Assembly: GCA_012511175.1 (NCBI GenBank)
Contig: JAAZGO010000018.1
Span: 1-34,177 of the forward strand
Origin: Fastidiosipila sp.
GTDB lineage: Bacteria > Bacillota > Clostridia > Saccharofermentanales > DTU023
Direction of reading: 5' to 3'
Length of the DNA stretch: 34,177 bases
Shown: positions 18,857 to 31,328 of the stretch, piece after piece
Position numbering within the stretch: position 1 is the stretch's first letter
Layout: each line of letters begins with the position of its first letter
Notes under the pieces: generated by a model
What the model saw: the letters and a program-made list of their open reading frames with translations, nothing else
What the model was told of the DNA's origin: nothing
The model's database searches: none
Program-made: the position numbers and the translations under genes

Positions 18857-21040
18857 TCAACTCAGAAGTGACTGGATCCAGCTGAGCAGGTTGAAGCGCG
18901 AGAAGACAGCGCCCATGACCACCGAAACCACCGACATGATCTTGATCAGGATGTCAAGCGAAGGTCCCACGGTATCTTTTAATGGATCGCCGACGGTGTC
19001 GCCAACGATGGCATGCTTATGTTCCTCGGACTCGCGGCTCAAGCCCTCAATACCGCCCACTTCGATAAACTTCTTGGCATTGTCCCAGGCACCGCCGGCG
19101 TTGCCGGTAAAGAGCGCCAGCATGATGGCTGAAATGGTCGAACCGATCAGGAGCCCCGCGACAAACATGGGGCCGAGGATAAAGCCGGTAACAACCGGAA
19201 AGAGAACGGCAAAGAGAGCAGAAACTCTCATCTCCTTCAGTGCGCCCCTGGAGGAGATGGCAATGCAGGTTTCATAGTCCGGCAGGACCTCTCCCTGGAG
19301 CAGACCCTTGATTTCACGAAACTGCCTGCGCACTTCGACCACCATGACCCGGGCCGTCTTGGTTACCGAGTCAATCAGCATGCCCGAGAACATGAAAGGC
19401 AGGGCGCCGCCCACCACCAGTCCGACCAGGGTCAGGGGCTGAATGGCGTCCAGGATGATCCGCTCGGTCGGAGGCGTGAAGGTGAAAAGGTAGGAAGAGA
19501 TCATGGACAGGGCAGCCAGAGCCGCGGAGCCGATGGCAAAGCCCTTGCCGATGGCAGCCGTTGTATTGCCCACCGCATCCAGGGTATCCGTGATCTGGCG
19601 CACCCCATTGTCCAGGAAACTCATTTCCGCGATGCCGCCGGCATTGTCGGCGATGGGCCCATAGGTATCCACCGAGACGGTCGCTGTGACGAAGGACAGC
19701 ATGCCGGTCGCCGCCATGGCGACCCCATACATGCCAGCCAGCTGGTAGGCGCCCAGGATGGCCAGCCCTAGCGTCACGCAAGGGTACATGGTCGATTTCA
19801 TGCCGACAGCCAATCCCTCGGTCACGGTCAAGGCGACACCTTCTTTGGTTGATTCGGCGATGACCTTGGTCGGTTTATAGGAATAGCTGGTGTAATATTC
19901 CGCGAAGACCCCGATGATAATCCCGCTGATCACGCCCATGCTGGCTGCCAGCAGGGGTGAAATCCAGCCAACCGCAAATTGGGCATTCTTCATTTCGACC
20001 GGGTTCATCCGGCCAAACATGATCCAGGCCAATACGAGTCCGAAGATCAGGGTTGCGCCGGCTGAGATCCAGGTCGACATATTGAGTTCATGGTGAGGGT
20101 TTTCCGACAATTTCTTTTTGAGAAGAAGCGACATTATCCCGATGACGCAGGCCACAAGCCCGCCCGCGGCAAAGACCAGCGGGTAGTTGATCATGGCGGA
20201 GACCATGCCCTTGCTTACATCGACGTGGTGGCTTCTGAAAACTTCACAGGCCAGGATGACCGCAGACATGATGGCGCCGACGTAAGACTCGAGAAGATCA
20301 GAGCCAAGTCCGGCCACATCGCCCACATTGTCTCCGACGTTGTCTGCAATGGTGGCAGGATTTCTCGGATCGTCCTCAGGAATATCCACCTCGGTCTTGC
20401 CCACCAGATCGGCCCCCATGTCGGCCGCCTTGGTATAGATGCCGCCGCCGACCCGGTTGAACATGGCGATGATGGAACAGCCGAGCGCGTAGCCTGAAAG
20501 GGTGATGGTAAAGGTGGTCGGTAATCCCCACCAGTTGATGTGCTGAACCCCGTCAACGATATCGCGCATCTGTCCGAATACGTGCCCAAAGACCAGGTAG
20601 ACAATCAGGATTCCCAGGAGGGCAAAGCCCCCGACACAAAGACCCATGACAGTTCCGCCCCGGTAGGCCACTTTCAAAGTCTCACTCAAACTTCGCGATT
20701 CGCGGGCCTTGTTGGTCACCCGGACATTGGAATAGGTGGCAATCTTCATTCCAATAAAACCCGCCAGGGCGCTCATGACTGCCCCGACAATAAAAGCCAC
20801 CGCCATCTGCCAGGTGATCAGGATGCCCAGGATCACCGAGATAATGGCTGCGATGATGGCGACCACCCGGTATTCGTAATTAATGAAGGTCGAAGCGCCG
20901 AGGCGGATGGCCGCGGCGATTTCCTGCATCCGTTCCGTCCCCTCATCCATCCGCTTGACCGCATAGTAGTTGATGGCCGCGTAACCGAGCGCCAGCACAG
21001 TCCCGAAGGCCATGATAACCGTCAAGATGACAAGACTCAT
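18857..21040 (-). CDS. hppA: Membrane-bound ion-translocating pyrophosphatase
   Basis: 727 residues with about 15-16 predicted membrane helices. It hydrolyses pyrophosphate and pumps H+ or Na+ across the membrane. Signature segments are GGGIYTKAADMGADLVGK (usual DVGADLVGK), EDDPRNPATIADNVGDNVGD and a C-terminal AWDNAKKF/GDTVGDPLKDT region. GNTTAAIGKG has Ala at 495 and Gly at 498, the pattern of K+-dependent enzymes (K+-independent ones have Lys and Thr there). Which ion is pumped cannot be decided here. AGGAG lies 7 nt before the ATG. It is a single-gene unit with its own terminator. Confidence 0.97.
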   Translation of the reverse strand: MSLVILTVIMAFGTVLALGYAAINYYAVKRMDEGTERMQEIAAAIRLGASTFINYEYRVVAIIAAIISVILGILITWQMAVAFIVGAVMSALAGFIGMKIATYSNVRVTNKARESRSLSETLKVAYRGGTVMGLCVGGFALLGILIVYLVFGHVFGQMRDIVDGVQHINWWGLPTTFTITLSGYALGCSIIAMFNRVGGGIYTKAADMGADLVGKTEVDIPEDDPRNPATIADNVGDNVGDVAGLGSDLLESYVGAIMSAVILACEVFRSHHVDVSKGMVSAMINYPLVFAAGGLVACVIGIMSLLLKKKLSENPHHELNMSTWISAGATLIFGLVLAWIMFGRMNPVEMKNAQFAVGWISPLLAASMGVISGIIIGVFAEYYTSYSYKPTKVIAESTKEGVALTVTEGLAVGMKSTMYPCVTLGLAILGAYQLAGMYGVAMAATGMLSFVTATVSVDTYGPIADNAGGIAEMSFLDNGVRQITDTLDAVGNTTAAIGKGFAIGSAALAALSMISSYLFTFTPPTERIILDAIQPLTLVGLVVGGALPFMFSGMLIDSVTKTARVMVVEVRRQFREIKGLLQGEVLPDYETCIAISSRGALKEMRVSALFAVLFPVVTGFILGPMFVAGLLIGSTISAIMLALFTGNAGGAWDNAKKFIEVGGIEGLSRESEEHKHAIVGDTVGDPLKDTVGPSLDILIKIMSVVSVVMGAVFSRFNLLSWIQSLLS

Positions 21041-21138: not shown

Positions 21139-21154
21139 GCCAAATGCGAAGGAA

Positions 21155-21182
21155 AGCCCGGCACCTCTCAAGGTGCCGGGCT
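21155..21182 (-). terminator. Terminator of the opp operon
   Basis: Perfect 12-bp stem AGCCCGGCACCT/AGGTGCCGGGCT with a 4-nt loop, followed on the minus strand by TTCCTTCG. The T-tract is short but the stem is very stable. It lies about 54 bp after the oppA stop. Confidence 0.75.
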
Positions 21183-21235
21183 CCGCTGTTAACATATCAA
21201 GACAATGTCAACGCCAGGCTTGCTCCATCCGGCAA

Positions 21236-23044
21236 TTATTTTCCGAACTGAGCGTCGTTGTTGCCGGAGGTCGACGTCCACATCTCAAGCATGTTGATGG
21301 GGTCGTTGAAGTCAGCGATCCAGCCGTGACGGGCAACGTCATAATGGCCGGCTTTTCTTTCAGCCAGGGTGGTATCCCAATCCTGCTGATTAACGGTCAT
21401 TTCAATCCCGAGCTGGGCCAGGTCGTCGATGATGATCTGAGCGATCTGGGCGTGAGCCTCATGGGTATTGAAGAGATAGTTGATGTGGATCGGATTCGAG
21501 TCGAGGAGTTTGCCGTCGCCGCCGAATTCGTAGCCGGCCTCTTCAAGCAGTTCTCTCGCCTTGTCGAGATCCTGCTCGTAGGGGTAGTAGCCCGCGGAGG
21601 CCTCATCCGGATAGGAGTAGGCAGCGGTATTGCGTTTGAACTCGTGACCGGTGCCATCCAGCATCATGGGCGGGATGAAGGAGTTGGCCAGGGTCTGGCC
21701 GGTCTGTCCCACTACGTCGACGATGTACTGACGGTCGATGGCATACATGACTGCCCATCTGACCTTGGCCGCCTGAGCGACCGACATGCCGTCAAACATA
21801 TCGGACTTGACGTTGAAGATGACAAAATAGGTCCCCAGGTTGTCCACCACGTGGAACTCCGGATTGTTCTCCTCGAGAAGCTTCTTGATTTCAGCCGGCG
21901 GTACGTTGTCGATGAAATCGAGGTCACCGGCCGTGTACATCTGATAGATGACCGGATCATCGTCGTTGAGGACGAAGTGCAGCTTCTGGAGCTTGACATT
22001 GTCAGCCCGGTGGAAGTGCGGATTCTTCTCAAAGGTGATGCTGCGGTTGTGCTCCCAGCCCGTGTTCATGAAGGGGCCGTTGGAGATGTAGCCGCCCTCC
22101 TGGGTCCAGGCAGCGGGATCCTTGATCTTGCCGTCGGTGTCCCTGTAGCCGGGTGCGCCTTCGACTGAAGCCTTGTGGACCGGGAAGTAGGTCGGGAAGG
22201 CGCAAAGATCGAGGAAGTAGGCCGTAATGGCTTTCAGCTCGATGGTCAGCGTCTTGCCGTCTTCCGAGGCCTTGACAGCCAGGTTCTCGACATCTTCCGT
22301 GTCATCCTCGGGCCAGCCCTTGATGCAGTCCAGCATGTAACGGTAGTCGGCTCCGACTTCCGGATCGGCGGCGCGCTTGAGTGAATACTCGAAGTCGTGC
22401 GCGTCAAAGGGGTCGCCGTTGGACCATTTCAGGCCGTCACGCATGGTGAAGGTGTAGGTCATGCCGTCGTCGGAAATGTCAATTTTCTCGGCTGTGTCGG
22501 GCACCAGCTCCATCTTCTCGTTGTAGGTCACCAGACCGGAGAAGGAGTTGACCGCCATGACCGCTCCGTCAACGGCCGAGTTGAGCGCGGGATCGATGTA
22601 CTGCGGCTCACTGGCAATGCAGAGATTCAGGGTGTCACGGTCCCCAAAGGTCGCTTTTTCAAAGTACTTGTAAGCGTAGGGCGTGACATAGTAGCCTTCA
22701 ACTCCGGGCTTGGCCATGTAGTTGTCGTTGTAATGGTAGATCGGCACAATGGCGCCGGTCGCCATCAACATGTCTTCCGCTTCGTGCATGGCAGCCAGAC
22801 GGGCATCCATGTCCTGCGTTGTCTTGATGAACTCAATCAGATCATCGTAGGCCTTCCAGTCGTGCGGATCCGGATATTCATCATCCTCTCCGGGCTCGCC
22901 CGGTCCCTCGGTCTCTCCCGGCTGGGTCGGAGCCTCAGTCTTGCCCGGCTCCGGCGCCTTGGTCGGTTCCGCTTCCTTCGGCGCACAGGCAACGAGTGTG
23001 AGGATCATGACGAACATCAAAAGGATTGTCAGTAGTTTCTTCAT
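21236..23044 (-). CDS. oppA: Circularly permuted OppA-like peptide-binding lipoprotein
   Basis: 602 residues. The lipoprotein signal ends LTLVAC (C20), followed by a Pro/Glu/Gly-rich linker (21-57). Residues about 58-132 (with YDDLIEFIKTT, MHEAEDMLM, IVPIYHYND, GYYVTPYAYKYF) match the segment that normally ends solute-binding proteins of the OppA family. From about 135 the usual mature N-terminus begins (TLNLCIASEPQYIDPAL, then DGLKWSNGDPFDAHDF). The protein stops at SGNNDAQFGK, exactly where that C-terminal segment normally follows. No remnant is seen after the stop, so this is a circular permutation. It captures peptides for the OppBCDF transporter. It is the last gene of the operon; AGGAGG lies 5 nt before the ATG. 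Confidence 0.92.
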   Translation of the reverse strand: MKKLLTILLMFVMILTLVACAPKEAEPTKAPEPGKTEAPTQPGETEGPGEPGEDDEYPDPHDWKAYDDLIEFIKTTQDMDARLAAMHEAEDMLMATGAIVPIYHYNDNYMAKPGVEGYYVTPYAYKYFEKATFGDRDTLNLCIASEPQYIDPALNSAVDGAVMAVNSFSGLVTYNEKMELVPDTAEKIDISDDGMTYTFTMRDGLKWSNGDPFDAHDFEYSLKRAADPEVGADYRYMLDCIKGWPEDDTEDVENLAVKASEDGKTLTIELKAITAYFLDLCAFPTYFPVHKASVEGAPGYRDTDGKIKDPAAWTQEGGYISNGPFMNTGWEHNRSITFEKNPHFHRADNVKLQKLHFVLNDDDPVIYQMYTAGDLDFIDNVPPAEIKKLLEENNPEFHVVDNLGTYFVIFNVKSDMFDGMSVAQAAKVRWAVMYAIDRQYIVDVVGQTGQTLANSFIPPMMLDGTGHEFKRNTAAYSYPDEASAGYYPYEQDLDKARELLEEAGYEFGGDGKLLDSNPIHINYLFNTHEAHAQIAQIIIDDLAQLGIEMTVNQQDWDTTLAERKAGHYDVARHGWIADFNDPINMLEMWTSTSGNNDAQFGK

Positions 23045-23064
23045 TCTTTCCTCCTTTTTCCTCT

Positions 23065-23171: not shown

Positions 23172-24212
23172 CTAACGATTCCAGCAGGCGACAAAATGTT
23201 CGCCGCCTCTATCCTCAAAGGGGGGTGTTTCCAATGCACACTGCTCGGTTGCGTAAGGGCAGCGCGTTCGAAAGGCGCATCCGCTCGGCACATGCAGAGG
23301 GCTCGGAACATCTCCTTCAAGTACAATCCGGTGACTCTCCCGGGCCGTCCTGGGATCGGGAATGGGGACGGCGGAGAAGAGCGATTGGGTGTAGGGATGG
23401 ATAGGATTGCTGTTGATCTCATCCGTCTTTGCCTGCTCAACCATTTTGCCAAGGTACATGACCGCGATACGGTCGCTCATATAGGTCACAACCAGAATAT
23501 CATGAGCAATGAAAAGATAGCTCAAATTGAGCTGATCCTGGAGATCCTTGAACATGTTGAGTATCTGCGCCTGGATGGACACATCCAGCGCGGATACCGA
23601 TTCGTCGCAGACGATGAACTTGGGATTGATGGCCAGGGCCCTGGCAATGCCGATCCGCTGGCGCTGGCCGCCTGAAAACTCGTGGGCATAGCGGGTCGCG
23701 TGTTCCTTGTTGAGCCCGACTAGGCGCATCAGGTCATAAACGCGTTCCCTTTGCTCCTTCTTGGTTTTAAAAATCTTATGGATGGACAGGGATTCGCCGA
23801 TGATATCCTCCACGGTCATGCGGGGGTTGAGTGAGGAATAGGGATCCTGGAAAACCATTTGCATGTTGCGCCGAAGTGAGCGGACGTTCTTCTCGGAAAT
23901 CAGCGATCCGTTAAAATAGACATCGCCTGCCGTCGGCGGATAAAGCCACATGAGCGCCCGACCGACTGTGGTCTTGCCGCAGCCGGATTCACCGACCAGG
24001 CCCAGGGTTTCCTTGTGGCGGATGAAAAAGGAGACATCATCAACCGCCTTGAGCGGCAGGGAACTGAAAAGACCCGTCTTGATATTGAAATGCTTGCTAA
24101 GATTCCGTACTTCCAGGATGTTGGCCGGATCCGGCTGGTAGTCCAGCTTTTTGGAGGCATCCCTTTTACCGGCATTTGCCTTGGCGGCAGACTCCTTCAC
24201 TTGGCTGGTCAT
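23172..24212 (-). CDS. oppF: Oligopeptide ABC transporter ATPase OppF
   Basis: 346 residues. ATP-binding subunit: Walker [10 protein letters not shown] (74-82), signature [15 protein letters not shown], Walker [10 protein letters not shown] (Ser where Pro is usual), H-loop FIAHD, and the C-terminal oligopeptide-family extension with [14 protein letters not shown], whose cysteines match the Opp/Dpp iron-sulfur or metal-binding pattern. The N-terminus carries an unusual basic, Lys/Ala-rich stretch of about 25 residues before the ABC domain. The ATG at 24212 overlaps the oppD stop as ATGA, with GGGAGG 9 nt upstream; a longer in-frame reading lies inside oppD and is rejected. Confidence 0.96.
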
Positions 24213-25234
24213 GCGCTGTCGCCTCCCTCTTCTTTGGTTTCTGCGCCCCGGTGATTCAACAGATATTCGCGGACATTGACCCAGCAGGCGGCCGACTGTG
24301 TTTCTGACAGGACGATCTCCTCGGGACTTTGTTCCAGACAGATTTCCATGGCTGCCTGGCAGCGGGGGGCAAAAGCGCATCCCTCCGGCAAGTTGAGAAG
24401 GTCAATGGGGTTACCTGCAATGGGTACCAGCCGCTCGTCGGATTTCTGTGACTTGGGAATGGACTTGAGCAGGTTCTTGGTGTACTCATGCTTGGGTGAG
24501 TAGAAGATGTCGTCCGTTGTCCCCCGCTCACAGATGGATCCGGCGTACATGACGATGATTTCGTCACACATATCCGCAATCACGCCCAGGTCATGGGTGA
24601 TCATGATGACGGCCATGCCGAACTGCTGCTGCAGCTCTTTAATCAGCTCAAGGATCTGGGCCTGGATGGTCACATCGAGGGCGGTCGTCGGCTCGTCCGC
24701 AATCAGGATGTCCGGCTCACAGGCGAGCGCCATGGCAATCATGACCCGCTGGCGCATGCCGCCCGACAGTTCATGGGGATATTGTTTGATGCGCCGCTTG
24801 GGGTCATTAATGCCCACAAGCCGGATCAATTCAAGCGAGCGCTCCCTGATTGCCTGGCCCCTGCGGTCGGTGTGCAGCCGGATGGCCTCATCCAGCTGAT
24901 TGCCGATGGTGTAAACAGGATTCAGTGAGGTCATGGGATCCTGGAAAATGATGCTGATGCTCTCGCCTCTGTACTCCCGCATCTTTTTGTCGGACAGCTT
25001 CAAAAGATCCTTTCCCTTGAAAATGATTTCTCCGCCGGTAACGCGGCCGGGAAAGGATAAAATCTGCATGATCGAATAAGCCGTCACACTCTTCCCGCTC
25101 CCCGACTCCCCGACAATGCCCAGGACCTTGCCGCGGTCCAGTTCAAAGGAGATGCCGTTGACTGCCTTGACTTCCCCGGAATCTGTGAAGAATGAAGTGC
25201 TTAGATTTTTAACTTCCAACAAATGTTCTGCCAT
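24209..25234 (-). CDS. oppD: Oligopeptide ABC transporter ATPase OppD
   Basis: 341 residues. Second ATP-binding subunit of the peptide importer: Walker A GESGSGKS (42-49), Q-loop FQDPMTSLNP, signature LSGGMRQRVMIAMAL, Walker B LIADEPTTALD, H-loop MITHDLGV, and the oligopeptide-family C-terminus with CAFAPRCQAAMEIC. It pairs with OppF. The start lies 2 nt after the oppC stop, with GAGG 8 nt upstream inside the end of oppC. Confidence 0.97.
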   Translation of the reverse strand: MAEHLLEVKNLSTSFFTDSGEVKAVNGISFELDRGKVLGIVGESGSGKSVTAYSIMQILSFPGRVTGGEIIFKGKDLLKLSDKKMREYRGESISIIFQDPMTSLNPVYTIGNQLDEAIRLHTDRRGQAIRERSLELIRLVGINDPKRRIKQYPHELSGGMRQRVMIAMALACEPDILIADEPTTALDVTIQAQILELIKELQQQFGMAVIMITHDLGVIADMCDEIIVMYAGSICERGTTDDIFYSPKHEYTKNLLKSIPKSQKSDERLVPIAGNPIDLLNLPEGCAFAPRCQAAMEICLEQSPEEIVLSETQSAACWVNVREYLLNHRGAETKEEGGDSA

Positions 25235-25236
25235 GT

Positions 25237-26316
25237 CTATTTCCTCAACTTAGGGTCAAAAGCATCGCGCAGGCCGTCTCCGATTAGATTCAGGGCCAGC
25301 ACGATCAAGGAGATGATGACCGCCGGAAAAATCAGCTGGTAGGGGTAGGCCTGCATGCCCTGCCGCGCTTCACTTGCCAGCGAGCCCAGGCTGGGCATGG
25401 GCACCGCCACACCCAGGCCGAGAAAGCTTAGGAAACTTTCCGTGAAGATGGCCGAAGGAATCTGGAGGGCCGTTGAGATAATGATGACACTGATGCAGTT
25501 GGGCAAAATATGCTTGCGGATGGTTCTCGCCTTGGATGCGCCCATGGAATTGGCGGCCAGTACATATTCATTTTCCTTGATGGACAGGATCTGACCCCGG
25601 ATCAGGCGGGCCATGCTGACCCAGTAAAGGAGGCCGAAGACGATGAACATGCTGATCATGCCGGTGCCGATTTTGGCCAGGATGGTTCCCTGAATCTGCT
25701 TTCCGATGGTTTCCTTGAGAACAAAGGACAGCAGGATAATCATCAGGGTATCAGGCAGCGAATAGATGATGTCCACGATCCGCATCATGACCAGGTCGGT
25801 CTTGCCGCCCAGAAAACCGGATATGGATCCGTAAATCAGGCCGATAACCAAGACGATCAGACTGGCGAAAAAACCCACAATCAGCGAAACCCGGGTTCCG
25901 ATGATGACGCGGATGAAATAATCCCGCCCCAGCGGGTCCGTTCCCATGACATGCGGGAAGAGATCCCCGCCCTTATCGATGTATTCCTGTTCTTTTTCAG
26001 ACCACTCATAAGGCCGCAAATTGGCGACCGTCCGGTCGCGCTGACCCTCCACCCGGATGGTTTCGCTGTACTTGTAAGGCACGAACTTGGGGATGATCAC
26101 GATGGCCAGGATGATCAGTATCAAAACAATCACACTGGTCATGGCCATTTTATTCTTTTTGAAGTTTTTGAAGCCGTCCCGCCAGAAAGTACTGGGCGGA
26201 CGCATGACTTCGAAACTCTGTTTGTCCTCCTCTGAAGCCAGGGTAAACTTGGACAGGTCGACTTGCATGCTCAGCAGGTTTTTGGCAAAAGGTGCCCGTT
26301 TATTTCCGTCACTCAT
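25237..26316 (-). CDS. oppC: Oligopeptide ABC transporter permease OppC
   Basis: 359 residues. Inner-membrane permease of the Opp/Dpp family: first helix at about 58-77, a periplasm-side loop ending in GTDPLGRDYFIRV (family hallmark), then five more helices and the EAA-loop NSMGASKARTIRKHILPN that docks with the ATPases. The cytoplasmic N-terminus of about 55 residues is longer than usual for OppC. AGGGGG lies 5 nt upstream of the ATG, and oppB ends 9 nt before. Confidence 0.95.
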   Translation of the reverse strand: MSDGNKRAPFAKNLLSMQVDLSKFTLASEEDKQSFEVMRPPSTFWRDGFKNFKKNKMAMTSVIVLILIILAIVIIPKFVPYKYSETIRVEGQRDRTVANLRPYEWSEKEQEYIDKGGDLFPHVMGTDPLGRDYFIRVIIGTRVSLIVGFFASLIVLVIGLIYGSISGFLGGKTDLVMMRIVDIIYSLPDTLMIILLSFVLKETIGKQIQGTILAKIGTGMISMFIVFGLLYWVSMARLIRGQILSIKENEYVLAANSMGASKARTIRKHILPNCISVIIISTALQIPSAIFTESFLSFLGLGVAVPMPSLGSLASEARQGMQAYPYQLIFPAVIISLIVLALNLIGDGLRDAFDPKLRK

Positions 26317-26325
26317 GACAGCCCC

Positions 26326-27237
26326 CTAATCGAATGTGATCCTGGGATCAACCATCTTATAAATAAGATCGCTGATCAGTGTCATGATGACCATGAGTGA
26401 AGCCAGGAAAATTGTCGTTCCCATAATCATGGTGTAGTCCCGGTTGAGAATGCTCTGAACAAACTCAAGGCCGAGGCCGGGCATGGTAAATACCGTTTCC
26501 ACCACCATGCTTCCCGTCAATGTATAAGCCACCATGGGACCCAGGTAGGTAATAATGGGCAGAACTGCGTTCCGGAGGGCATGTTTAAAAACAACTTTTC
26601 CGGGGCTGACACCTTTGGACCGGGCTGTCCGGATGTAGTCGTCAGCCATGACATCCAGCATGCTTGACTTGGTCAGCCGTGTGATGTAGGCCGCCGGGTA
26701 AAGGGAAAGAGACAGGACGGCCAGAAAATAGTTGGGTCTTACTTCGTTATAGACGGGGAACCAGCCCAGCTTGAGTGCAAAGACCAGCAAAATCAAAGTG
26801 GCCATCACAAATCCCGGCACCGACTGAAACAGGGTGGTGAAAAAGATGATGACACGGTCAGTCATCTTGTTGCGGCGAAGGGCCGCAATGACTCCCAGGG
26901 TGATGCCGATGGCAAAGGAGGCGATAATGGAATAGCCGCCAATTCTGGCTGATACCGCAAATTTCTTGTTGATGGTTTTGATGATCTCCCGGCCGTTGCG
27001 CATGGAAATACCCAGATCCCCGTGCAGCATACGGGTCAGATACATCAAAAATTGCTCGCCGAGGGGTTTGTCAAGATCGTACCGTTCCGTCAGAGCTTTG
27101 ATTGTCGCGGGATCCGAGGCTTTTTCCTTGTCAAACGGTCCTCCGGGGATCGCATTCATGGTGAAAAAAGTGATGGCAATGACTACAAATACCGTTACAA
27201 TGGCCAAAAGGATCCGCTTAAGAAAATACCGCCACAT
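26326..27237 (-). CDS. oppB: Oligopeptide ABC transporter permease OppB
   Basis: 303 residues. First gene of the operon. Permease with an N-terminal helix after MWRYFLKRILL, the RYDLDKPLGEQFLMYL segment common in OppB/DppB, further helices, and the EAA loop ARSKGVSPGKVVFKHALRNA. AAGGA lies 2 nt and GGGAGG 11 nt before the ATG, both off the ideal spacing, so initiation may be modest. It follows a leader of about 155 nt from a consensus promoter. Confidence 0.96.
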   Translation of the reverse strand: MWRYFLKRILLAIVTVFVVIAITFFTMNAIPGGPFDKEKASDPATIKALTERYDLDKPLGEQFLMYLTRMLHGDLGISMRNGREIIKTINKKFAVSARIGGYSIIASFAIGITLGVIAALRRNKMTDRVIIFFTTLFQSVPGFVMATLILLVFALKLGWFPVYNEVRPNYFLAVLSLSLYPAAYITRLTKSSMLDVMADDYIRTARSKGVSPGKVVFKHALRNAVLPIITYLGPMVAYTLTGSMVVETVFTMPGLGLEFVQSILNRDYTMIMGTTIFLASLMVIMTLISDLIYKMVDPRITFD

Positions 27238-27652: not shown

Positions 27653-29446
27653 TCAGGCTGCTGTCTCAAATTGACTGTTATACAGTCCCGCATAGAAACC
27701 GTTCAGCGCCATCAGCTCATCATGGCTGCCGCGCTCGATGATGTTCCCCTCCTGCATGACCAGGATGACATCGGCATTCTTAATCGTCGACAGGCGGTGG
27801 GCGATGATGATGGAGGTCCTGCCCCCCATCAGCTGATCCAGAGCCCGCTGGATGTTGAGTTCAGTCCGGGTGTCAATCGAGGAGGTCGCCTCGTCAAGGA
27901 TCAGCATGGGTGCATTCTCAATCATGGCCCGCGCGATGGTGATCTGCTGTTTCTGGCCTGCTGACAGATTGGTTTCATCGCCCAGGACCGTATCATAACC
28001 GTAAGGAAGTGTTTCGATGAAGTGGTGCAGTCCCACCGCTTCACAGGCACGGATCACCTCCCCGTCACTGACATTTTCCTTGCTGTAGACGATGTTTTCC
28101 CGGATGGTGCCCTCAAAGAGCCAGGTGTCCTGCAGAACCATGCAGAACTGCTCCCGGACATTTTCGCGGGTCAGGTCCTGGATGTTGATCCCGTCAATGG
28201 TAATCAGGCCGTGTTCAATTTCATAAAAGCGCATCAAAAGATTGACCATGGTGGTCTTGCCGGCACCGGTCGGGCCCACGATGGCGATTTTCTGACCCGG
28301 TTTCGCCCAGGCGGTAAAATCGTGGATCACATCTTCCTCCATGCCTTCGTAACGGAAACGGACATTGCGGAATTCCAGCTGGCCTCTGACTTGGTCTAGG
28401 TGTTGAGTCTTGCCGCTTTCGTCTTCGACTTCCTCTTCCTCCAAAAACTCAAAGACGCGCTCACTGGCTGCCGCCGCGGACTGCAGCCGGGTCGCCACCT
28501 GGGCGAAATCCTGCAAGGGATGAGAAAAGAGCCGGATGTACATCATGAAGGCCACAATGGTGCTGAAGGGGATCCGCCCCTGGAATACGAAGATCCCGCC
28601 CATGATGCTGACTGTGACAAAACCGAGATTGCCCATGAAGAACATCATGGGCATCATCATGGAGGACAGGGCCTGCGACTTGAAGGCAGAGGTCTTCAGC
28701 CGGTCGTTTATCTTGTCGAAAGTCTTCCTGGCACCCTTTTCGCCGTTGTAGGCCCTGACAATGTTGTGACCGGCGTAAATTTCCTCGACATGGCCGTTCA
28801 TGTCACCCAGGTCGCGTTGCTGCGCAACGAAATATTTGCGGGAAGCCCGGATGGTCAAAGTCATGAAAAAGAAGCCGATCAGGGTCACCCCCACCGCAGC
28901 CAGGGCCATCCAGACGTTGGCGATGATCATCATGGCCAGAGAACCGAAAAAGAGGGTGACGGAGGAGCCGATGGAGGCGATCCCCTGGTTGAGCGCCTGG
29001 CTCACACCATCCACATCGTTGGTGACCCGGCTCAAAATATCGCCGTAGGAAACCCGGTTGAAGTAGTTGATGGGCACCTTGTTGATTTTCTCGGCTACGT
29101 GCCTCCGCATCCTTTTGGAAATGGTCTGTGCCACCCCGGTCATGAAAAAGTTCTGAAAATAATTGAGCAGGGCCCCCGTGCCATAGATAGCGATCAGACC
29201 CGCAATCAGAAGCCGCATGGCCCTGAAATCAATGGATCCGGTCATGCCCTTTTCGATGACGTCGACCACCATGGCCAGGCGCCTGGGCCCGATCAGGGAG
29301 AGGATGGCCCCGGCTGAAGCGCCCAGAAAAGAAGCGATAATGGGAAGCCGTTCTGTCCTGCTGTAGGCGATCAGTTTGCCCCAGGTCTTTTTGAAATCCT
29401 TGGGCTTCTCGACCGGACGGCCGATGCCGCCCCGCCCGCCGCCCAT
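27653..29446 (-). CDS. ABC exporter half-transporter, canonical NBD
   Basis: 597 residues from the ATG at 29446. Six-helix exporter domain (about 20-315) followed by an ABC domain: Walker A GPTGAGKTT, signature LSAGQKQQ (second Gly of LSGGQ is Ala), Walker B LILDEATSSID with catalytic E519, H-loop AHRLST with H550. It pairs with the upstream gene product. The start is unclear. The best ribosome binding site (GGAGGAG, 29517-29511) points to ATG 29502, which overlaps the upstream stop as ATGA but reads only M-S-Q-K-E before TAA. A -1 shift there would join the long frame, which is open upstream of 29446. The ATG at 29446 itself has only a weak site. A likely multidrug or lipid exporter; the substrate is unknown. 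Confidence 0.9.
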   Translation of the reverse strand: MGGGRGGIGRPVEKPKDFKKTWGKLIAYSRTERLPIIASFLGASAGAILSLIGPRRLAMVVDVIEKGMTGSIDFRAMRLLIAGLIAIYGTGALLNYFQNFFMTGVAQTISKRMRRHVAEKINKVPINYFNRVSYGDILSRVTNDVDGVSQALNQGIASIGSSVTLFFGSLAMMIIANVWMALAAVGVTLIGFFFMTLTIRASRKYFVAQQRDLGDMNGHVEEIYAGHNIVRAYNGEKGARKTFDKINDRLKTSAFKSQALSSMMMPMMFFMGNLGFVTVSIMGGIFVFQGRIPFSTIVAFMMYIRLFSHPLQDFAQVATRLQSAAAASERVFEFLEEEEVEDESGKTQHLDQVRGQLEFRNVRFRYEGMEEDVIHDFTAWAKPGQKIAIVGPTGAGKTTMVNLLMRFYEIEHGLITIDGINIQDLTRENVREQFCMVLQDTWLFEGTIRENIVYSKENVSDGEVIRACEAVGLHHFIETLPYGYDTVLGDETNLSAGQKQQITIARAMIENAPMLILDEATSSIDTRTELNIQRALDQLMGGRTSIIIAHRLSTIKNADVILVMQEGNIIERGSHDELMALNGFYAGLYNSQFETAA

Positions 29447-29498
29447 TTGCGGCTGCCTGCGGATCCTGGTATCATCACCGATTTTTATTCCTTCTGGC

Positions 29499-31259
29499 TC
29501 ATGACGCCAACTCCTCCATGGACAGCTGCGACAGGGCAATCTCCTGATAGACTTTACAGTTTTTCATCAGTTCGGCATGGGTTCCCGCACCGACCAGTTT
29601 CCCCTCGTCGAGGACCAGGATCTTGTCCGCGTCGCGGATGGTTCCAATCCGCTGCGCCACGATGACGGTGGTGGCCCCTTTCATTTTATCTTTGAGGGCA
29701 TGGCGCAGAGCCTTGTCCGTCCTGTAGTCCAGGGCTGAGAAGGCGTCATCAAAGAGATAAATCTCCGGCTGCCGGTGCACGGCCCTGGCGATGGACAAGC
29801 GCTGTTTCTGCCCGCCGGAGTAATTGGTTCCCCCTCTGGCAACCGGGGCTTCATAGCCTTCCGGAAGCGTGTCAATAAAATCTTTTATCTGGGCAACCGA
29901 AGCAGCATCTTCCAGACTTTCCGCTGACCTTGAACCGCCATTCCGATCACCGTAATCGATATTGTCCTCGAGGGTCCCCGAAAACAGAAAGGCTGTCTGG
30001 GGAACATAGCCGAATTTTTTACGAAGCGCCTGCTGCTTGTACTCTTTCACGTTGATGCCATCGATCAGAACCGCCCCTTCCGTGGCCTCATAGAAGCGCG
30101 GAATCAGGTTGAGCAGGGTGCTTTTACCGCTGCCTGTCGCCCCGATAAAGGCAATGGTTTCACCTCTGGCCGCCTGAAAGGAAATATCCTTCAGCACATA
30201 ATTGGCCCCGTCCGGATAGCGGAAGCAGACATTCTTGAACTCGATGGCCGAAGTGCTCTCCGGTGCCTCTTCCAGTTTTCCGTCTTTGATCGCCGGCTCT
30301 GTTTCGATGACTTCCCGGATGCGGTTGGCGGATACAGCCACCCGGGGCGCCATGGCGAAAAGCATGGTCATCCGCATGAAGGACATGACAATCTGCATGG
30401 CGTAGTTCATGAAGACCACCATACTGGAGAACAAAAAGATCTTGTCATGCGCGCCTGCCGCCTGAATGAGCACGGCCCCGATCCAATAGATGGCGATGCT
30501 GAGGCCATTCATGATCAGCCCCATGCCCGGGCCCTGCACCATCATGATGCGGTGGGCCGTGAGATTGTTGTGGGTCAATGCTTCATTGGCTTCCTCGAAC
30601 TTGGCCTCCTGGTAGGGTTCTGCATTGTAGGCTTTGACAACCCTGATGCCCAGCAGATGCTCCCGGGTGATCCGGTTGATGTTGTCAGTTAGGGTCTGAA
30701 TTCTCCGGAATCTGGGCATAGCGAATTTGAAGATAACGAAAATGATGACCAGCAAAAAGGCGACCGCCACACTCATGGCCAAGGACCACAGGGTCTGCCC
30801 CTGACTGGTGATCTTGGTGATGGCCCAGATTGCGGTGATGGGCGCGGGGATCATGATGCGGATCAGCATGGCTGTGTAAAACTGGATCTGCGTCACATCG
30901 TTGGTCGAACGCGTGATCAGGCTGGCCGTGGAAAAGCGGTTGATCTCCTCCATGGAAAAAGATGAAACACGTTCAAACTGCAATATGCGAAGCCTGGTCG
31001 CAAAGCAGGCGCCAACCCGGGCCGACATGACAGCGACCACGATCATGACCGCAAGGTTACCCAGGGCAGTCAGCAGCATCCAGCCGCCTGTGGTCCAGAT
31101 CTCCCGCAGGGTATTTCCCTCCGTCATGATCAGCTCGGTCACCCGCTTCATAAATTCGGGTATCTTAAGCTCGAAATAGACGCGCAAAATGGTTAACAGG
31201 GAAGCAGCAAAGGCAAGCAGCCAGTCTTGTCTGCGCATGTATTTAAATGTCTTTATCAT
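29499..31259 (-). CDS. ABC exporter half-transporter, degenerate NBD
   Basis: 586 residues from the ATG at 31259. Six-helix exporter domain then an ABC domain: Walker A GATGSGKST, signature YSGGQKQRLS, Walker B LFDDAFSALD with Asp (D505) in place of the catalytic Glu, and Gln (Q536 in VAQRIGT) in place of the H-loop His. This is the pattern of the degenerate subunit of heterodimeric exporters such as TM287/288, with the partner encoded next. ATG 31259 gives the usual MIKTFKYMRR start but has no ribosome binding site at normal distance; GGAGG lies 21 nt upstream. Its stop overlaps an ATG of the downstream gene (ATGA). Confidence 0.92.
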   Translation of the reverse strand: MIKTFKYMRRQDWLLAFAASLLTILRVYFELKIPEFMKRVTELIMTEGNTLREIWTTGGWMLLTALGNLAVMIVVAVMSARVGACFATRLRILQFERVSSFSMEEINRFSTASLITRSTNDVTQIQFYTAMLIRIMIPAPITAIWAITKITSQGQTLWSLAMSVAVAFLLVIIFVIFKFAMPRFRRIQTLTDNINRITREHLLGIRVVKAYNAEPYQEAKFEEANEALTHNNLTAHRIMMVQGPGMGLIMNGLSIAIYWIGAVLIQAAGAHDKIFLFSSMVVFMNYAMQIVMSFMRMTMLFAMAPRVAVSANRIREVIETEPAIKDGKLEEAPESTSAIEFKNVCFRYPDGANYVLKDISFQAARGETIAFIGATGSGKSTLLNLIPRFYEATEGAVLIDGINVKEYKQQALRKKFGYVPQTAFLFSGTLEDNIDYGDRNGGSRSAESLEDAASVAQIKDFIDTLPEGYEAPVARGGTNYSGGQKQRLSIARAVHRQPEIYLFDDAFSALDYRTDKALRHALKDKMKGATTVIVAQRIGTIRDADKILVLDEGKLVGAGTHAELMKNCKVYQEIALSQLSMEELAS

Positions 31260-31328
31260 GCTTATAAGACTTGGACAGTTCCTCCGATTTGTCAAGTGGC
31301 AGGCGGACCGTATTCTGCCCTGACAGCC

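Follow-up and report, generated by a model that had tools for sequence, protein, structure and literature searches.

Most circular permutations found in nature go back to one ancient event. The closest described system among ABC-importer binding proteins is TpMglB-2 (Tp0684), a naturally circularly permuted glucose-binding lipoprotein of 'Type Ic / Cluster Bc', in which about 100 N-terminal residues have moved to the C-terminus, giving one topology in a single class, and for which an anchoring explanation has been suggested (PMC4990184). Recurrent natural permutation has been described for DNA methyltransferases, where it is explained by gene duplication and truncation at both ends (PMC5944983; Jeltsch 1999). 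Canonical OppA receptors of SBP_bac_5 cluster C, including Bacillus subtilis OppA (8are) and Escherichia coli OppA and DppA, place the N-terminus of the fold first and the C-terminal block last. A further cluster C receptor, the AliC domain-swapped dimer (8qlh), which appeared among the structural matches, exchanges chain parts between copies while remaining unpermuted, hinting by analogy that the cluster C fold may tolerate rearranged connections.

Judged from sequence comparison, the gene at 21236-23044 of the window, the whole 34,177-nucleotide stretch analysed here, encodes a naturally circularly permuted OppA-type binding protein. This protein is homologous to canonical OppA over its whole length after rotation and shares with it the operon partners, the lipoprotein export signal and the GW..D motif, but it carries the C-terminal ~75 residues first and therefore bears its anchor at a different point of the fold. 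TpMglB-2 is likewise a natural permutation of an ABC-importer binding protein, within a group that is mostly tethered and found in treponemes and Gram-positives, but it belongs to another fold class, being a cluster B sugar receptor rather than a cluster C protein. Membership of cluster Bc, which implies a type I fold and MglB homology, is not met by the window protein, for which only PF00496 matched. The DNA methyltransferases differ in being cytosolic enzymes whose natural C5-MTase permutants have essentially one breakpoint, whereas OppA-type receptors have at least four. No report of circular permutation in OppA/DppA-type receptors was found in the open-access papers searched, and an earlier report elsewhere remains possible. 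Thus, natural permutation of binding proteins is already known, while the OppA/DppA-type case and its unusual recurrence are apparently unreported.

Order of the OppA fold in the window protein

The source genome (G000) is a 1.7 Mb assembly of a clostridial group, 97.7% complete with 1.2% contamination, in which the permuted oppA forms the final gene of a minus-strand operon oppB-oppC-oppD-oppF-oppA (Table 1). The region 21140-21200, containing the hairpin 3' of oppA, folds with -29.6 kcal/mol (z -4.3). Directly 3' of the operon lies a membrane pyrophosphatase gene on the minus strand (18857-21040), of the sodium-translocating type by NCBIfam, and 5' of oppB, also on the minus strand, two adjoining MsbA-like half ABC exporters (27653-31295) probably form a heterodimeric exporter.

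Table 1. Features of the permuted oppA gene and its operon, in window coordinates.
Feature	Position	Strand	Basis
oppA, circularly permuted type A, 602-aa SBP_bac_5 peptide-binding lipoprotein	21236..23044	-	ORF, Pfam, phmmer, profile
Signal peptide, lipobox LVAC, Cys20 predicted lipidated residue	22985..23044	-	sequence; MKKLL...LTLVAC
Low-complexity Pro/Glu/Gly/Thr-rich linker, residues 21-57	22874..22984	-	length and sequence vary among homologues; pLDDT <50
Moved C-terminal block, residues 58-133 (profile 442-510)	22646..22873	-	phmmer, rotation, profile
New junction, residues 132-141 (TFGDRDTLNL), old C-terminus joined to old mature N-terminus	22622..22651	-	alignment, profile
Canonical mature N-terminus to loop before C-terminal helices, residues 136-602 (profile 2-441), end SGNNDAQFGK	21239..22639	-	Pfam, phmmer, profile
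Ribosome-binding site AGGAGG, 5' of oppA ATG	23050..23055	-	sequence
Hairpin 3' of oppA stop, likely transcription terminator	21156..21182	-	RNA fold
oppF, ATPase, probable internal start near residue 56	23172..24380	-	
oppD, ATPase	24209..25234	-	
oppC, permease	25237..26316	-	
oppB, permease	26326..27237	-	

Pfam detects a single domain in the protein, SBP_bac_5 (PF00496), at residues 179-596 with 275.1 bits against a curated cut-off of 32.4. Against a comparison profile built from 25 canonical relatives, the protein as encoded aligns in two swapped pieces, residues 140-602 corresponding to profile positions 2-441 and residues 64-132 to positions 442-510, which score 502.9 and 69.2 bits, respectively; after rotation, the alignment becomes one piece spanning positions 2-510 with 584.5 bits. 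Scanning rotations in 10-residue steps places the best opening near residue ~131. The same exchange is observed with phmmer against the PDB. Specifically, residues 136-598 match positions 19-450 of B. subtilis OppA (8are) and residues 68-133 match 459-524, the latter weak on its own, while residues 138-593 and 64-125 match 23-441 and 451-512 of DppE (8ay0), the second with an E-value of 6.8e-5. The rotated sequence aligns as a single continuous match (3-544 to 19-523). The protein consequently fails the order expected of canonical OppA, its blocks being swapped, and only after rotation does its homology extend to the whole canonical chain, including the terminal regions. No second copy of the C-terminal block occurs within the protein or elsewhere in the window. 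A natural circular permutant is recognized by continuous alignment only when rotated, by the presence of each part once and by conservation of the order in orthologues, all of which are met here.

These results bear out an earlier note, made from the letters alone, that had read the segment directly following the lipoprotein signal and linker as the OppA C-terminal block, had placed the canonical mature N-terminus after it with the protein ending at SGNNDAQFGK, and had argued for a permutation rather than a loss; nothing is missing or doubled in the profile and phmmer alignments, and the continuous full-length match arises only upon rotation. Either a mismatch of the block to OppA C-termini or a separate C-terminal copy in the protein or an adjacent gene would have overturned that reading, and neither was encountered. 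The limits given in the note for the moved block, residues about 58-132, are slightly corrected, with the linker reaching to about residue 57-63 and the block covering about 58-133.

The ligand-binding elements and the predicted structure are consistent with a folded receptor. In 11 type A proteins (the window group, defined below), the GW..D motif retains an invariant W575 and a nearly invariant D578; by phmmer coordinates, D578 lines up with residue 408 of mature DppA (D436), the aspartate that binds the amino group of the peptide (PMC12136057). An AF2 model computed from a shallow alignment of 11 sequences reaches a pLDDT of 78.2 and a pTM of 0.76, the moved block being modelled at pLDDT 79-89, mostly 84-89. 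Residues ~134-601 of the model superpose on OppA with Z 27.8 over 417 residues at 3.2 A, and the structural matches are cluster C proteins, the core sharing ~33% identity with 8are in the Foldseek alignment. Sequential structure aligners were used; with these, only residues ~134-601 are aligned, the moved block is left unsuperposed and the permutation itself cannot show. A model of one type B protein was only moderate (pLDDT 70.9, pTM 0.68) and is not used as evidence. Because the GW..D motif is kept, the AF2 model is folded, its core superposes on OppA and the operon is intact, the window protein is inferred to be a working oligopeptide receptor whose anchor sits on a different part of the fold; binding and transport are without biochemical data.

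Conservation, breakpoints and number of origins

Homologues sharing the rotated order, whose existence would support the earlier proposal, were found at full length with 90, 82, 79, 75, 68, 56, 55, 57, 55 and 44% identity, the same-genus proteins being 90-68% identical and those of other genera 57-44%. This type A arrangement is present in 13 of the 188 genomes searched from the order, including a second family (L046), and all copies are full length except an internally deleted one in G036. The lipobox is retained in most type A homologues, and almost every type A context has oppBCDF next to the permuted gene, just as relatives have it next to canonical oppA. Between orthologues, dN/dS amounts to 0.03-0.18 in the moved block, 0.07-0.11 in the core and ~0.24 in the signal and linker region. 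As the order is conserved down to 44% identity under purifying selection, misassembly and gene decay can both be set aside as the source of the permutation in the window.

The nearest canonical relative found, L092 of the Clostridia genome G489, is 48.9% identical to the rotated window protein across 543 aligned residues. Both proteins reside in an oppBCDFA operon, but L092 is unpermuted, and its loop GNNDMQLGK-DTSNSSAP-SWKEYD coincides exactly with the point at which the window protein has been opened.

Reduced permuted loci were also observed. In G029, of the same genus, the whole opp operon is gone from this site, and only the last ~38 codons of a permuted oppA are left (L034, G029:C86, 1507-1620). 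This remnant stands between the apparent end of the ABC exporter gene on its 5' side and the pyrophosphatase gene on its 3' side, a deletion scar. The type A gene L165/L030 (G036:C11) has suffered a large internal deletion leaving 372 aa, and L020 has a shortened C-terminus; these two cases suggest receptor decay in one genus (g7).

The search for C-to-N junctions covered 188 genomes of the order, 391 of the class and 398 of the phylum, the class and phylum samples being evenly drawn and many of the genomes being metagenome assemblies. Permuted oppA genes were carried by 21, 10 and 11 of these, respectively. Across Bacillota, SBP_bac_5 receptors are opened at four breakpoints, at profile positions ~441, ~350, ~264 and ~113. 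Type A opens at position 441/442 and comprises the window group together with L046, L072 and L073. Type B opens at ~350 (L053, L061, L074-L076; also L122, L123 and L125-L131), type C at ~264 (L058, L077, L078 and L098; also L124) and type D at 113/114 (L100, from Subdoligranulum variabile; public record OY725879.1). In almost all intact permuted proteins, the two pieces add up to the whole profile, and where they meet they leave out or share no more than a few positions. One type B member is statistically strong even when taken alone, its residues 185-556 aligning with OppA 11-363 (E 4.7e-64) and its residues 23-177 with 363-518 (E 2.7e-26). The exceptions are the shortened or incomplete L020 and L057 and some members of types B and C whose last ~10 positions are unaligned. 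Types B and C are carried by the complete single-contig genomes G223, G512 and G748.

Permutation at the type B point extends to a dipeptide-receptor-like subfamily, represented by L192 (G610:C36), where a permease gene adjoins the receptor. The same contiguous junction is present in 24 genomes of at least 7 families of the phylum; only L192 was read individually, and the neighbourhood was looked at there only. Comparison of the junctions with a plasmid collection by tblastn yielded one clear named-replicon case, that of S. variabile. Matches in Phyllobacterium and Lactobacillus crispatus were not counted, as they span two tandem annotated genes; weak matches of 25-35% came from Borreliella, Natrononativus, rhizobia and others.

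The number of origins was approached with maximum-likelihood trees of sequences rotated to the canonical frame and aligned, on which the directions of change are unrooted. The permuted and canonical states interchange 7 times on a 54-row tree and 9 times on a 67-row tree, at least six of the latter being forced by well-supported branches. Well-supported branches place the type C protein L124 and the type D protein L100 within clades of canonical receptors. A single clade is rejected by the AU test for all permuted forms (p 4e-13), for type B (1e-44) and for type C (4e-6), whereas type A remains acceptable as one clade (p 0.52). Since single type B and type C clades are rejected, the same breakpoints have been reached more than once. 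Rotation of SBP_bac_5 receptors in Bacillota, as inferred from these trees, has recurred at least six and probably at least nine times. Some of the changes are possibly reversions, with L092 positioned next to or inside type A, and the long branches of L098 and L058 leave some placements unsure.

Proposed route, competing explanations and meaning

The reading considered very probable is that of a working OppABCDF receptor, circularly permuted, which recurs in Bacillota via duplication and truncation. The data establish the rotation, its conservation and selection, the operon and the several origins, whereas binding, transport, the duplication route and near-neutrality are inferred. According to this model, oppA would have been duplicated in tandem within the operon, the C-terminus of the first copy would have been fused in frame to the N-terminus of the second, and truncation at both ends would have completed a permutation by duplication. 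The new termini lie in a variable surface loop close to the old C-terminus (GNND.Q.GK / loop /.W..YD), and the new N-terminus is preceded by the lipoprotein signal and linker. The bilobed fold that holds the peptide and its binding chemistry would be kept, only the anchor-bearing point of the fold changing, and repeated events have placed new termini at a few tolerated points. Tandem pairs of canonical oppA in four opp operons examined (L157, L158, L159 and L161) make the route plausible. No fused tandem oppA dimer, the expected intermediate, was present among the matches listed, in which the longest matching frame is ~850 aa. Convergence on the same breakpoints reveals the places at which new ends are tolerated by the fold.

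The absence of such a dimer among those matches also counts against a different history, in which a single ancestral permutation or fused tandem dimer was the source of every permuted form through differential truncation, and the canonical order was regained in later reversions. A C-to-N fusion is common to all permuted forms by definition, and the type A and type B junctions are similar in length, both in favour of this history; the rejection of one clade for all forms and the placement of L100 and L124 inside different canonical clades nevertheless render it very unlikely. An artefact, either of tandem oppA genes wrongly joined or of a decaying gene, was also weighed, given that most carriers are fragmented metagenome assemblies and that two are visibly damaged (the internal deletion in G036 and a frameshift in G173). 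However, several genera share the order at full length under purifying selection, each protein possesses its own signal peptide and contains every part once, and assembly error is ruled out for types B and C in the complete single-contig genomes. Conservation, selection and complete genomes thus lead to rejection of this explanation, for which practically no room is left.

Relocation of the anchor could instead be adaptive, the lipidated end having been moved in a manner that alters reach, orientation or strain on OppBC docking. Repeated independent origins would fit such a role, as would the fact that types A and C, and some type B receptors, are lipoproteins and the tethering of TpMglB-2 and its relatives in treponemes and Gram-positives (PMC4990184). 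Non-lipid signal peptides are, however, common among permuted receptors (L018, L019, L072 and L122-L131). In G514, G610, G748, G007 and G012, the permuted receptors carry non-lipid signals like many other receptors there, and many canonical receptors in the genomes concerned also lack a lipobox, so that permutation does not track lipid anchoring. In addition, each of the four breakpoints puts the end elsewhere on the fold. The earlier note, which could not see that the permutation recurs, had suggested that a shifted anchored end could change how the receptor sits on OppBC; as a general explanation this is weakened by the non-lipid signals and by the existence of several breakpoints, and adaptive relocation is accordingly regarded as unlikely. 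Slightly less doubtful, though still improbable, is the broader idea that opening the chain at certain points, by which the anchored or exported end is shifted, is recurrent because it confers a working advantage, for example in OppBC docking, folding during export or lobe opening and closing; if true, four breakpoints in one family would constitute a natural experiment on chain connectivity. Under the preferred reading of recurrent duplication and truncation, the permutation is inferred to be nearly neutral.

With at least six rotations at four breakpoints, and with closely related canonical receptors often found in a comparable operon, matched natural pairs are available; the nearest canonical relatives are L092 for type A, L059 for type D and L066 for the type C protein L124. 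Such pairs can be used to ask if a binding protein is affected by its chain connectivity and by the position of its anchor, where the cluster C fold can accept new termini and by what route permutations come about. For annotation, the permuted genes match SBP_bac_5 like normal members, and scans that expect the domain in a single ordered piece report it as truncated or split.

Two individual permuted genes carry additional features. The type B gene L130, located in a single-contig genome (G923:C1, about 904594-905124), contains one in-frame TGA within the moved block, for which a pseudogene, a sequencing error or readthrough are candidates. The type D receptor of S. variabile (L100) extends beyond its new C-terminus by a Ser/Ala-rich tail of ~35 residues.
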